Assembly (NCBI GenBank): GCA_012520095.1
Contig: JAAYOV010000105.1
Span: 1-64,000, forward strand
Length of the DNA stretch: 64,000 nt
Origin: Tissierellia bacterium
GTDB taxonomy: Bacteria > Bacillota > Clostridia > Peptostreptococcales > Acidaminobacteraceae
Direction: 5' to 3'
The stretch's first letter is position 1; every line of letters begins with the position of its first letter. The notes beneath the pieces were generated by a model. It worked only from the letters and a program-made list of their open reading frames with translations, was not told the DNA's origin and made no database searches. This document shows positions 52,034-57,546 of this stretch, piece by piece. Both the position numbers and the translations under genes were made by a program.

Positions 52034-52558
52034 TTATGATGAGCGGGCTATGTACACGCCGGATTCCCCGTCAACATCCATCACTTTAACCATTACCTCT
52101 TCAGTATGAGATGAGGGAATATTTTTTCCGACATAATCCGCTCGAATCGGCAGCTCTCTGTGTCCTCTGTCGACTAATACGGCGACCTGAATGGTCGAAG
52201 CTCTTCCTCTTGAAAACACCGCTTCCAAAGCGGCACGAAGTGTTCTCCCGGTATGCAGGACGTCATCGACGACGATGACATCCTTGCCTTGAAGCGAGAC
52301 GGGAATCTCGCTTATATCCTCTGTTCTCTCTTCTTGCCGGCGGTCGTCGCGAAAAGGAGTGATGTCCAGCGTTCCCACGGGCACTCTGATGCCTTCAAAT
52401 CGCTCGAGATTATCCGCAATAATGCGACTGAGACTTCCTCCTCTTGTAAGGATCCCCAGGAGGACGATGTTTTCCACTCCTTTATTACGTTCAATAATTT
52501 CATGAGAGATGCGCGCCAGGGAGCGGGCAACGCTCTTTTCATCCATCAATCTTCGCAT
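52034..52558 (-). CDS. pyrR: Pyrimidine regulator/uracil phosphoribosyltransferase PyrR
   Basis: 174 residues. Phosphoribosyltransferase fold with the PRPP motif VIVVDDVLHTGRTLRAAL, the loop ILTRGGSLSRIIA, DITPFRDDRR and the C-terminal VLVDRGHRELPIRADYVGKNIPSS. PyrR binds UMP and attenuator RNA of pyr operons; no pyr genes are in this window, so its target lies elsewhere. The start is the ATG that overlaps the rluD stop by one base, chosen over a 26-residue extension inside rluD. The rluD-pyrR order is common in Bacillota. Confidence 0.93.
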   Translation of the reverse strand: MRRLMDEKSVARSLARISHEIIERNKGVENIVLLGILTRGGSLSRIIADNLERFEGIRVPVGTLDITPFRDDRRQEERTEDISEIPVSLQGKDVIVVDDVLHTGRTLRAALEAVFSRGRASTIQVAVLVDRGHRELPIRADYVGKNIPSSHTEEVMVKVMDVDGESGVYIARSS

Positions 52559-53430
52559 CACTTCCACTCTTTTTCCTTCATTGTCGCAAGCACCTTCGAA
52601 AAGTCTTCCGGAAGAGGAGCGCTGAGTTCTATCCATTTGCCGGTCGAGGGGTGAGAAAACCCGAGTCTTTGCGCATGCAGGAGCTGTCCCGGTTTTCTCC
52701 CTCTGCTCCTTCCGCCGTAAAGCGGATCACCGACAATCGGATGACCTATCGACTGCAGATGAACCCGAATCTGATGAGTTCTTCCCGTCTTTAATCGGCA
52801 TCGAAGCAGCGAGAAGCCCTCAAAAACTCCTTCAAGCTGTACCTCTGTGAGCGCTCTCTTTCCCTCTGCTTCAACCGTCCTCTTGAGAGGATTTCCTCTG
52901 CTTCTTGCCAAGGAGAGATCGATCATGAGCTCCGTAAAATTGACTTCCCCCTCCACAAGTGCTAGATACTCTCTTAAAATATCGCGATCTTTGAACTTCT
53001 TGTGGAAGTACTCCCAACTCTCATCCGTCTTCGCAACAAGGATCAGTCCCGTCGTATCTTTGTCGAGTCTGTGGACAATCCCCGGTCGATCTTCACCACC
53101 TCTTCGAGTAATATCAGGAAAGTAATGCAAAAGAGCATGGGCCAACGTCCCGCTTGCATGCCCCGCTGAAGGGTGTACTACCATGCCGCGGGGCTTATTC
53201 ACGATAATGGCCTGAGAATCCTCATAGACAATGTCCAAGGGAATTTCTTCCGGCAACATAAGATCATCTTCCTCCGGAAAATCAATGAGGAAATCTTCTT
53301 CACCGGTGACAACGGCACTCTTTTGAAGGATCTTTCCGTCCAGGCTCACCCTCCCCTCTTCAATCCAGCGCTGAAGACGCGCCCTTGAATACTGAGGGTA
53401 TTTACGACGCAAAAACTGATCGAGGCGCAT
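52558..53430 (-). CDS. rluD: RluD-type 23S rRNA pseudouridine synthase
   Basis: 290 residues. The N-terminal S4 RNA-binding domain MRLDQFLRRKYPQYSRARLQRWIEEGRVSLDGKIL is followed by the RluA catalytic core: VNKPRGMVVHPSAGH, the active-site HRLDKDTTGLILVAK with the catalytic Asp, and TGRTHQIRVHLQSIGHPIVGDPLYGG. The exact rRNA position modified cannot be assigned with certainty. The start overlaps the ileS stop (TGATG), so translation is coupled to ileS. Confidence 0.92.
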   Translation of the reverse strand: MRLDQFLRRKYPQYSRARLQRWIEEGRVSLDGKILQKSAVVTGEEDFLIDFPEEDDLMLPEEIPLDIVYEDSQAIIVNKPRGMVVHPSAGHASGTLAHALLHYFPDITRRGGEDRPGIVHRLDKDTTGLILVAKTDESWEYFHKKFKDRDILREYLALVEGEVNFTELMIDLSLARSRGNPLKRTVEAEGKRALTEVQLEGVFEGFSLLRCRLKTGRTHQIRVHLQSIGHPIVGDPLYGGRSRGRKPGQLLHAQRLGFSHPSTGKWIELSAPLPEDFSKVLATMKEKEWK

Positions 53431-56400
53431 CACTTTGCCGATAAATTGGTGAGGCGGATTCTTGTTGGCTGTCCATTGAGCACGTATTCTTCACCGCTTA
53501 TCTCCGTACAAAGCATCTCTTCAGCGAGCACCTCATTCATGATGAAGTCGCGATGTGCTTCCACTGCCGCTTCAAACTCCGGTGTGGAGCAGTATTCCAC
53601 TCGAATGCGATCCGCCACATGATAGCCATTGTTCTTTCTCTGTTGTTGGAGGCGAGAGACAAATTCTCTGGCATATCCCTCAGCCTTCAGTTCATTGCTG
53701 ATGTCGATGTCGAGGATGACAAACAGATTTCCCTGTACTTCTACTGTAAAGTGTTCCCTCGCTTCAACGGAGATCTCCACTAGTTCATTACTCAAGAGAA
53801 TATCCCCGCCTTCATAGGTAAACATCACCTCTTCACCGTTTCTCAATTTCATAGCCAGTTCATCAACTTGTGCATCGCGCAGCGCCTTTTGAAAGACTCC
53901 CATGTTTTTTCCAAGGCGCGGCCCTAAGATCCGGAAGTTCGGTTTTAAGAGGAAACGGACATATTCAGATGGTTTCTCAACGTATTCCATCTGTTTGACG
54001 TTCAGCTCTTCCAATATGATCGATTCGACATCCTTCAGTTTTTCGCGAAGTTGTTCATCGACTAATACGCGACTGAGAGGCTGTCGGACTTTGATGCCGA
54101 CTTGCTCGCGAGATGCGCGCCCAAGAAATACAATTTTCCTGGCCAAATCCATCTTCTCTTCAAGCTGAGCATCCTGCCAGGCGGCATCAGATTTTGGAAA
54201 GAAGCCCAAGTGCACGCTCATCTCTCCCGTGAGATTTCGGTAAATCTCTTCCGTGATGAAGGGGGCGATGGGCGAAGCCATAAGGCACACATCCTTTAAC
54301 ACCTTTGCCGTAACGACATAGGCAGCTTTCTTATCGCCGTCCAAACCCTCTTTCCAGTAGCGTCTACGGCTTCTCCTGATATACCAGTTTGAAAAGTCCT
54401 CATTGAGGAAATCCTGAAGAGCATGTGTGACCTTGGTGACATCATATTCCTCATAAGCAGCCGCAACTGCGTCGATCGTCTGAGAAAGCCTCAAAAGAAT
54501 CCAGCGATCCAGCATAGAGTAATCTTGCGAATCTACTTCAAGTTCTTCGACATGGATGCCGTCATTATTTGCATACAGCGTCAAAAGGTGGTAAGCATTC
54601 TTCAATGTCCCGAAGAACTTGCTCTGAACCTCTCTCAAACCGTCCGGGTCGAACTTCGTGGTCATCCACGCCGGTGAGACATACGACAGATACCACCGCA
54701 CCGTGTCGGCTCCCACCTCATCAAACAACTGAATCGGATCTAAGGTGTTTCCCCGACTCTTTGACATTTTTTTGCCGTCTTTATCAAGGAGGTGGTCGTT
54801 GACCAGAACATTTTTGTAGGGCGCGCGTCCACCGATAAAGGTGGATATGGCCATCAGAGAATAGAACCAGCCACGCGTCTGATCGATTCCCTCGCAAATA
54901 TAGTCTGCCGGATAGTACAAGTCGAAATCATCCTTGTGCTCAAACGGATAGTGCATCTGCGCAAACGGCATGGCTCCCGAATCAAACCAGACGTCGACTA
55001 CATAATCTTCTCGTTTCATGCGCCCTTTGCACTTCGGACATTCAATCTCTACGCGATCCACATACGGTCTGTGCAGCTCGATGTTTTCATCAATGGGATC
55101 GATGCTGCGCTCGACGAGTTCTTTTCTCGATCCAATCGACTCCTCATGGCCGCACTCACACACCCATACATTGAGCGGAGTTCCCCAATAGCGGTCCCTC
55201 GAGATGGCCCAGTCTTTGATATTTTCTAGCCAATTGCCGAATCTCTTTTCACCTACATGAGCAGGATACCAGTTGACCGTGTTGTTGTTTTCCACCAATT
55301 GATCGCGAAGAGCGCTCATCTTGATGTACCAGCTCGGATTGGCATAGTAAAGAAGGGGAGTGTCGCAGCGCCAGCAGTGCGGATAATTGTGATCCATCCT
55401 CTGCTTTTTATACAGTTTTCCGTTTTCACGCAGCCATTCCACTATGTGCTCGTCGGCATCCATGACAAACATGCCCTTCCAGGGTGTCTGCGTATATTTC
55501 CCTTCCAAATCCACAGGTTGAAGGACCGGAGCATTATAATTCTGCCCCGTCTGATAGTCTTCCTCGCCAAATGCAGGCGCCGTATGCACGATGCCGGTAC
55601 CGTCTTCCGTCGTGACATAATCGGCAAGCGTGACAAAAAAGGCCTTTTTATCCACTTCTATAAAGGGCATCAGCTGCTCATATTCGACATATTCGAGCTC
55701 TTTGCCCAAAAACTCATCGAGTATTTCCACTTCATCGCCCATCACCTGATGCACAAGGTTTTTAGCAAGGATGAACACATGCTCTCCTTGGCGAACGCGG
55801 ACATAGGTGACCTCCGGATGAACCGTCAACAAGACATTGGATGCCAGCGTCCACGGTGTCGTCGTCCAAACGAGAAAATACTCTTCTCGATCCTTTCTCT
55901 TAAACGCAACCGTGACCGTCTCCTGCTTAATATCCTTATATCCTTGTGCGACTTCATGCGATGCCAGTCCCGTACCGCAACGGCTGCAATAGGGAAGAAT
56001 CTTAAATCCTTTGTACATGTATCCGCGCTCATGGAATTGTTTGAGAATCCACCAGCAGCTCTCTATATACTTGTCTTCAAGGGTGATATACGGATCATCC
56101 ATGTCCAGTAAATACGCCATCCGCTCGGAGAGCTCTCTCCACGCAGACTCATATTCGAATACAGACTTTCTGCATAAGTTGTTAAAAGCTTCGATGCCGT
56201 AATCTTCGATCTGTTGCTTGTGGGTAAATCCGAGCTTGCGCTCCACTTCGATTTCCACAGGAAGCCCATGGGTATCCCATCCGCCCTTTCTCGGAACCAG
56301 ATATCCTTTCAAGTTCCAATAGCGACAGATGGAGTCCTTGAGATTTCTTGAAACAACGTGGTGAAGCCCCGGCATTCCGTTTGCCGTCGGCGGCCCCTCA

Positions 56401-56528
56401 TAAAAGATAAAGCGGGGCTGATCTTTCCTCATTTCCAGCGTTGTTCGCAGCAAATCGATTTCTTCCCAATACATGCGCTGTGCATGTTCGGCATCCTTTA
56501 CTGATGAACTGATTAACGGTTGATACAT
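53430..56528 (-). CDS. ileS: Isoleucyl-tRNA synthetase, IleRS2-like, with GxHH signature
   Basis: 1032 residues. The class I first signature, normally HIGH, reads G54-L-H-H57 in PPTANGMPGLHHVVSR. KMSKS is normal (KMSKSRGN). The WDTHGLPVE block, the editing domain (VWTTTPWTLASNVLL, GTGIVHTAPAFGEEDY) and a long C-terminal extension fit the eukaryote-like IleRS2 type rather than IleRS1. IleRS2 enzymes resist mupirocin, and a GxHH exchange of the first and third signature residues is known to give extreme resistance (established knowledge). Expression is controlled by an isoleucine T-box upstream. It is the only ileS in the window, so it may be the housekeeping enzyme. Confidence 0.95.
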   Translation of the reverse strand: MYQPLISSSVKDAEHAQRMYWEEIDLLRTTLEMRKDQPRFIFYEGPPTANGMPGLHHVVSRNLKDSICRYWNLKGYLVPRKGGWDTHGLPVEIEVERKLGFTHKQQIEDYGIEAFNNLCRKSVFEYESAWRELSERMAYLLDMDDPYITLEDKYIESCWWILKQFHERGYMYKGFKILPYCSRCGTGLASHEVAQGYKDIKQETVTVAFKRKDREEYFLVWTTTPWTLASNVLLTVHPEVTYVRVRQGEHVFILAKNLVHQVMGDEVEILDEFLGKELEYVEYEQLMPFIEVDKKAFFVTLADYVTTEDGTGIVHTAPAFGEEDYQTGQNYNAPVLQPVDLEGKYTQTPWKGMFVMDADEHIVEWLRENGKLYKKQRMDHNYPHCWRCDTPLLYYANPSWYIKMSALRDQLVENNNTVNWYPAHVGEKRFGNWLENIKDWAISRDRYWGTPLNVWVCECGHEESIGSRKELVERSIDPIDENIELHRPYVDRVEIECPKCKGRMKREDYVVDVWFDSGAMPFAQMHYPFEHKDDFDLYYPADYICEGIDQTRGWFYSLMAISTFIGGRAPYKNVLVNDHLLDKDGKKMSKSRGNTLDPIQLFDEVGADTVRWYLSYVSPAWMTTKFDPDGLREVQSKFFGTLKNAYHLLTLYANNDGIHVEELEVDSQDYSMLDRWILLRLSQTIDAVAAAYEEYDVTKVTHALQDFLNEDFSNWYIRRSRRRYWKEGLDGDKKAAYVVTAKVLKDVCLMASPIAPFITEEIYRNLTGEMSVHLGFFPKSDAAWQDAQLEEKMDLARKIVFLGRASREQVGIKVRQPLSRVLVDEQLREKLKDVESIILEELNVKQMEYVEKPSEYVRFLLKPNFRILGPRLGKNMGVFQKALRDAQVDELAMKLRNGEEVMFTYEGGDILLSNELVEISVEAREHFTVEVQGNLFVILDIDISNELKAEGYAREFVSRLQQQRKNNGYHVADRIRVEYCSTPEFEAAVEAHRDFIMNEVLAEEMLCTEISGEEYVLNGQPTRIRLTNLSAK

Positions 56529-56546: not shown

Positions 56547-56745
56547 AAAATAAAAGGCCCGGCATAGGGGCGCCTAATACGCGGTACCACCCTATTTGCC
56601 TGAGGCCACTTTCCCTGTTAACGCGGGGTTTTGCGTCGGTTTTACCGATTCAACATGCAGTGATAATGCAAAAAGACTTCTTGCTGCCTCTCACCCGGGT
56701 TGACAGCTCTCTGCAAAGAAGGATCTCGTTGATCGTGTCTGCAAG
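56547..56745 (-). promoter_or_regulatory. Isoleucine T-box riboswitch
   Basis: The T-box core AGGGTGGTACCGCG is at 56593-56580, then a terminator (AGGCGCCC.../GGGCCT, 56575-56555) and TTTTATTTT. Stem I holds CAGAGAGC, GGGTGAGAG and the specifier ATC (Ile) at 56664-56662 within TTATCACTGC. It starts at the end of yggT; a separate promoter is not clear, so read-through from yggT or a promoter inside it is possible. Confidence 0.88.
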
Positions 56746-56749
56746 TGTT

Positions 56750-57016
56750 TTAAAAAAGCGACATACGAAGCACATACTTCAAAAGTTCAACCACAAGATA
56801 CGAGCCAAGCACGGAGAAGTCGAACATGCCGCCTTGCATCAAGGGAGCAAGCATACTTCTCACCGGACCCACTATCGGCTCAGTGATCGTGATGATAAAT
56901 TGGTACAATGGACTGCCGGGATTTCTCATAAAAATCCAAGAGCTGATCGCCCGCACGACGAGGAGCCACTGGAGTAAGTCGAGAAACCTGAACAGGTAAA
57001 TGCCGAAACGTATCAT
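56750..57016 (-). CDS. YggT family membrane protein
   Basis: 88 residues with two membrane helices. The family pattern is the pair of FLDLLQWLLVVRAISSWIF and PLYQFIITITEPIVGPVRSMLAPLMQGG segments. YggT proteins sit next to sepF in Bacillota and are thought to act in division or osmotic response; the role is not established. The start overlaps the sepF stop (ATGA). Confidence 0.88.
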   Translation of the reverse strand: MIRFGIYLFRFLDLLQWLLVVRAISSWIFMRNPGSPLYQFIITITEPIVGPVRSMLAPLMQGGMFDFSVLGSYLVVELLKYVLRMSLF

Positions 57017-57546
57017 AAAATTCCCGGAAGCTCCTCTTTAACAATAGGAGCTCGCTGGGCATTGCTGTGGACATCGACTCCATGAGGCACGATGATGTAT
57101 ATGGCGTTGGCTATTTTGCTGATATCTGCATCCAGTGCATAGGCGGCGCCTTCACATATATTGATTATTTTCGCACTGACATAGTCTTCCGTCTCCTCAA
57201 AATTGAGAATGACAGGGCGACCAAGCTTAATATCGTCGATGATCGAAGTGCTCTCTCGATGGTCTATCGGCGCATACTTGCAGATAATCATCTTCGCGTC
57301 GGATGCGGAGTATTCGGGGGCAAAGGAGCGTTGCTGCGCCTGTGTATTATAAGCTCTTTCACGTTCAGAACGTTCCGGATAGCTTCGCGCAGGCTGACGT
57401 CGTTCTCTTCTCTCCGAGGGGACATATTCTGATTCGGGTTGGGCTCTTCTTTCGCCTCTTGTGTCTCTTCTAGGCTCTTCACTCGCTTCATTTTCTTCTT
57501 CCTCAAGACCGAAGAAAAATTTCACTTTGTCGCCAAAACTGTTCAT
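57013..57546 (-). CDS. sepF: Cell division protein SepF
   Basis: 177 residues. An N-terminal amphipathic helix for membrane binding (NSFGDKVKFFFGL), a disordered Arg/Glu-rich linker of about 65 residues, and the C-terminal FtsZ-binding domain KMIICKYAPIDHRESTSIIDDIKLGRPVILNFE. SepF anchors and aligns FtsZ filaments; ftsZ itself lies at 63447-64000. AGGAGG precedes the ATG. Confidence 0.93.
   Translation of the reverse strand: MNSFGDKVKFFFGLEEEENEASEEPRRDTRGERRAQPESEYVPSERRERRQPARSYPERSERERAYNTQAQQRSFAPEYSASDAKMIICKYAPIDHRESTSIIDDIKLGRPVILNFEETEDYVSAKIINICEGAAYALDADISKIANAIYIIVPHGVDVHSNAQRAPIVKEELPGIL

Follow-up and report, generated by a model that had tools for sequence, protein, structure and literature searches.

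The window analysed here, a 64,000-nucleotide stretch of DNA from an uncultured clostridial (Tissierellia-like) bacterium, encodes an isoleucyl-tRNA synthetase (IleRS) whose first class I signature reads Gly-Leu-His-His (GLHH). This gene is very probably the housekeeping ileS of the organism, coding for a GXHH type 2 enzyme with an inherited motif and predicted mupirocin resistance. Such an enzyme is not novel; it is a further example of a variant described in 2023 (PMC10485003). The value of the finding lies mostly in annotation: a class I synthetase variant already described gains one more example, together with a count across its clade.

A type 2 isoleucyl-tRNA synthetase with a GLHH signature

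The ileS gene (53430..56528, minus strand) was delimited as an open reading frame of 1032 residues, and its product was identified by the family model TIGR00392 and by its best structure match. In the profile search, the TIGR00392 match scored 919.9 bits against a curated cut-off of 621.4. The closest solved structure is IleRS2 of Priestia megaterium (E 2.5e-294), matched at 982 bits compared with at most 399 bits for PmIleRS1, and IleRS1 structures in general match far more weakly than IleRS2 structures. All four P. megaterium IleRS2 chains head the list of structures, and among them the engineered GVHH form 8c8w scores slightly above the HVGH form. In addition, residues 836-1026 (53451..54023, minus strand) form a C-terminal DUF5915 domain (PF19302, E 4.3e-50), which we take to be a mark of type 2 IleRS, and in the tree the protein falls with IleRS2, which a branch of support 100 divides from IleRS1. 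The IleRS2-like assignment made in an earlier note is borne out by these three lines of evidence and, judged by its sequence, the enzyme is a type 2 IleRS of the GXHH subgroup.

The non-canonical signature was read directly at residues 54-57, where the minus strand has the codons GGG CTT CAC CAC (56369..56358), as the earlier note had reported. The second class I signature, KMSKS, is intact at residues 587-591 (54756..54770, minus strand; coordinates computed from the open reading frame). With Gly at motif position 1, His at positions 3 and 4 and this intact KMSKS, the protein has the hallmarks of the G/AXHH group. In HMMER alignments, gapless across the motif for P. megaterium IleRS2, each residue of GLHH stands opposite its counterpart in the HVGH of that enzyme and likewise in the HVGH of Thermus thermophilus IleRS, and the residues opposite it in the solved structure 8c8w are the engineered GVHH. 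A true HxGH at another position, which the earlier note had named as the alignment result that would speak against its reading, is absent: no alternative HxGH lies near GLHH in the alignment to the solved IleRS2 structures.

Published mechanism and predicted mupirocin resistance

Bacterial IleRS2 was already shown to occur in clostridia in a 2016 study (PMC4861432). A survey of 379 IleRS sequences, published in Nature Communications in 2023, included 163 IleRS2, 86 with G/AXHH and 77 with HXGH, and reported solved structures together with a housekeeping role and broad distribution of G/AXHH enzymes (PMC10485003). The earlier note had described HxGH as nearly invariant; this holds for IleRS1 and for class I synthetases generally but not for IleRS2, about half of which have G/AXHH in that survey. 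Exchanging the motif in either direction changes the mupirocin Ki up to 10^3-fold, G/AXHH being the cause of hyper-resistance, and among the homologues studied the Ki of G/AXHH IleRS2 is about 10^2 to 10^3-fold over that of HXGH IleRS2 (PMC10485003).

The structural explanation given in the same work is that IleRS2 enzymes have a shifted signature helix, so that the third-position His replaces the first His of HxGH and the adenine is not displaced; this third-position His was also modelled to clash with mupirocin (PMC10485003). By analogy, the third-position His of GLHH would do the catalytic work of the first HxGH His, which the shifted signature helix of IleRS2 would make possible. The same bulky residue would clash with bound mupirocin, and the Ki is therefore predicted to be high, between high micromolar and millimolar values. 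The window sequence does not depart in any respect from the mechanism of the published homologues. The connection that the earlier note drew between a GxHH swap and very high mupirocin resistance is thus documented for homologues (PMC10485003), and from them we infer resistance of the window enzyme.

Distribution and probable inheritance of GxHH

The earlier note had proposed an alignment and a count of GxHH members. In the loci of named genomes, 76 N-termini could be read; 74 have GxHH and the other two, from Paenibacillus, have HIGH. All 27 readable order-level relatives have it as well. When the phylum was sampled evenly, the IleRS2 genes read comprised 36 with GxHH and 52 with HxGH, and the two motifs are split by clade. 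The rarity that the note implied is contradicted by these counts, and a housekeeping role for such enzymes had already been published.

A FastTree phylogeny, built with the motif masked and provisional in its deep branches, places the clostridial GxHH genes in a single clade (62 rows, support 100), and HxGH IleRS2 genes cluster separately with weaker support (79). At least two changes are required on this tree to account for GxHH. The GLHH form itself is common to the window enzyme, a congeneric genome (L151) and the metagenome-assembled genomes nearest to it. GxHH is the normal state in the clostridial clade of the window gene, and GLHH would have been inherited from the ancestor of this large clade without recent acquisition by the window genome. 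On a broader scale, the odds are about even that mupirocin hyper-resistance is intrinsic to a large clostridial lineage, whose sole IleRS would have had GxHH since the lineage ancestor; the swap would then be an inherited state of the active site and would not have arisen lately under the drug. These anaerobes are predicted not to respond to mupirocin, a point of practical use where culture media contain it as a selective agent.

Why the motif was kept can be read differently. It may have persisted by inheritance, drift or some catalytic reason unrelated to antibiotics, resistance being a side effect in a lineage seldom exposed to mupirocin. GxHH is fixed throughout a deep clade and changes seldom along the tree, a pattern that resembles inheritance and not recent selection. 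In the 2023 study, however, the effect on resistance is direct and can be reversed, and its authors favour selection by antibiotics (PMC10485003). We consider this account of the origin unlikely, though it has some weight. The question bears on origin only, and the biochemical consequence is not contradicted by either answer.

Two further observations were made on IleRS2 signatures. A distant IleRS2 (L252 / L213, G309:C46:29722-32697) has GVHH in the context NNPMGVHH, at 33% identity and on a long branch; it is possibly part of a minor IleRS2 clade with an independent GxHH. Separately, HxGH-type IleRS2 of the phylum often have Ala or Pro at motif position 2, as HAGH or HPGH (L160-L168, L171, L172, L174-L178 and others), and these fall outside the residues listed for that position (Ile, Val, Leu, Met or Tyr) in PMC10485003.

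Genomic context and copy number

The surroundings of ileS are those of an ordinary housekeeping cluster, in the order der-gpsA-...-yggS-sepF-yggT-ileS-rluD-pyrR. On the 5' side lie der, gpsA, an HlyD-like gene, yggS, sepF (57013..57546, minus strand; PF04472, E 1.7e-16) and a small open reading frame of 88 residues between sepF and the T-box (56750..57016, minus strand), assigned as a YggT/YlmG-like small membrane protein by sequence reading. On the 3' side, an RluD-type pseudouridine synthase (52558..53433, minus strand; PF00849 and PF01479) follows directly with a 4-base overlap, and a PyrR-like phosphoribosyltransferase comes next. A T-box leader precedes ileS at 56563..56750 on the minus strand (Rfam RF00230, E 5.5e-13), with a score of 62.1 bits that is under the gathering score of 93. 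An AUC at 56664-56662 was assigned by eye from the alignment to the specifier-loop region, and with the specifier so placed the leader fits isoleucine specificity. A scan of 14 related loci placed a T-box directly before ileS in seven of them (L015, L018, L020, L023, L040, L041 and L043) and elsewhere in the locus in L025 and L029. The normal operon and the T-box of the earlier note are upheld, the leader at its below-gathering score and with isoleucine as its probable specificity.

The genome, 96.8% complete in 126 contigs, was searched with the protein and with the TIGR00392 profile, and a single ileS was found, in agreement with the earlier note, which had called the gene the only ileS of the window and suggested a genome-wide search for another. 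At this completeness and contig number, a missed second copy keeps a small probability. The remaining weaker matches were rejected as ileS, being ValRS, LeuRS and MetRS by reading; ValRS lies on C15 upstream of a folC-like open reading frame, and MetRS on C24. The assembly is fragmented, with leuS divided between contig ends (G000, end of C84 and start of C94). The TIGR00392 cut-off is exceeded exactly once per genome in all 31 genomes compared, namely the window genome and 30 relatives from the genus, family and order. Because ileS is single in the genome and stands in an ordinary cluster behind a T-box, the window gene is the housekeeping copy and not an acquired resistance gene, as the earlier note had surmised.

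It is accordingly very improbable that the gene came in by horizontal transfer as a mupirocin-resistance determinant like MupA or MupB. The MupA and MupB models do match the protein, at 915.6 and 910.7 bits, as all of these are IleRS2, but the scores are half of the curated cut-off of 1900 bits. Furthermore, the window ileS is the sole copy found, with no resident ileS beside it, its neighbours are cell-division and housekeeping genes, a T-box precedes it, and it groups on the tree with congeneric and related clostridial genes. Still less credible is the idea that faulty assembly or misalignment of the signature hides a true HxGH; nothing was found in its favour, and it is ruled out by GLHH or GIHH at that column in independently assembled relatives (for example GLHH in L008, at 85% identity) and by the gapless alignment to solved IleRS2 structures.

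HxGT signatures in IleRS1

A separate observation concerns IleRS1 of the phylum, in which 6 of 20 sampled sequences, read as controls, have HLGT in place of HxGH (e.g. L214, L217, L222, L227, L228 and L231). With an exact degenerate pattern, an IleRS1-type HxGT signature, in which the fourth His is Thr, was found in 97 of 396 genomes of the phylum, and the reversed control of the pattern gave no genome among the matches listed. All 12 HxGT loci checked (L254-L265) encode IleRS1, with 52-68% identity to a clostridial IleRS1. These genomes conflict with the statement that all IleRS1 have HXGH; laboratory resistance mutants of Staphylococcus aureus can have His to Gln at the fourth motif position (PMC10485003). 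In the paper library searched, no report of HLGT with isoleucyl-tRNA synthetase was found. HxGT IleRS1 may be a newer finding than the GLHH of the window, from which it is separate.

Comparison with known systems

Among known enzymes, MupA and MupB are type 2 IleRS like the window protein but are acquired second copies. IleRS2 of P. megaterium (8c8u, 8c8v, 8c8w and 8c9d) matches the window enzyme over almost its full length with the same domain order; however, its natural motif is HVGH, unlike GLHH, and the GVHH of 8c8w is engineered. The G/AXHH IleRS2 enzymes of PMC10485003, such as those of Deinococcus radiodurans (ALHH) and Streptomyces griseus, share with the window enzyme the same motif column, the same swap, the type 2 architecture and the housekeeping role. 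The window enzyme differs from them in having Leu at X and belonging to another lineage.
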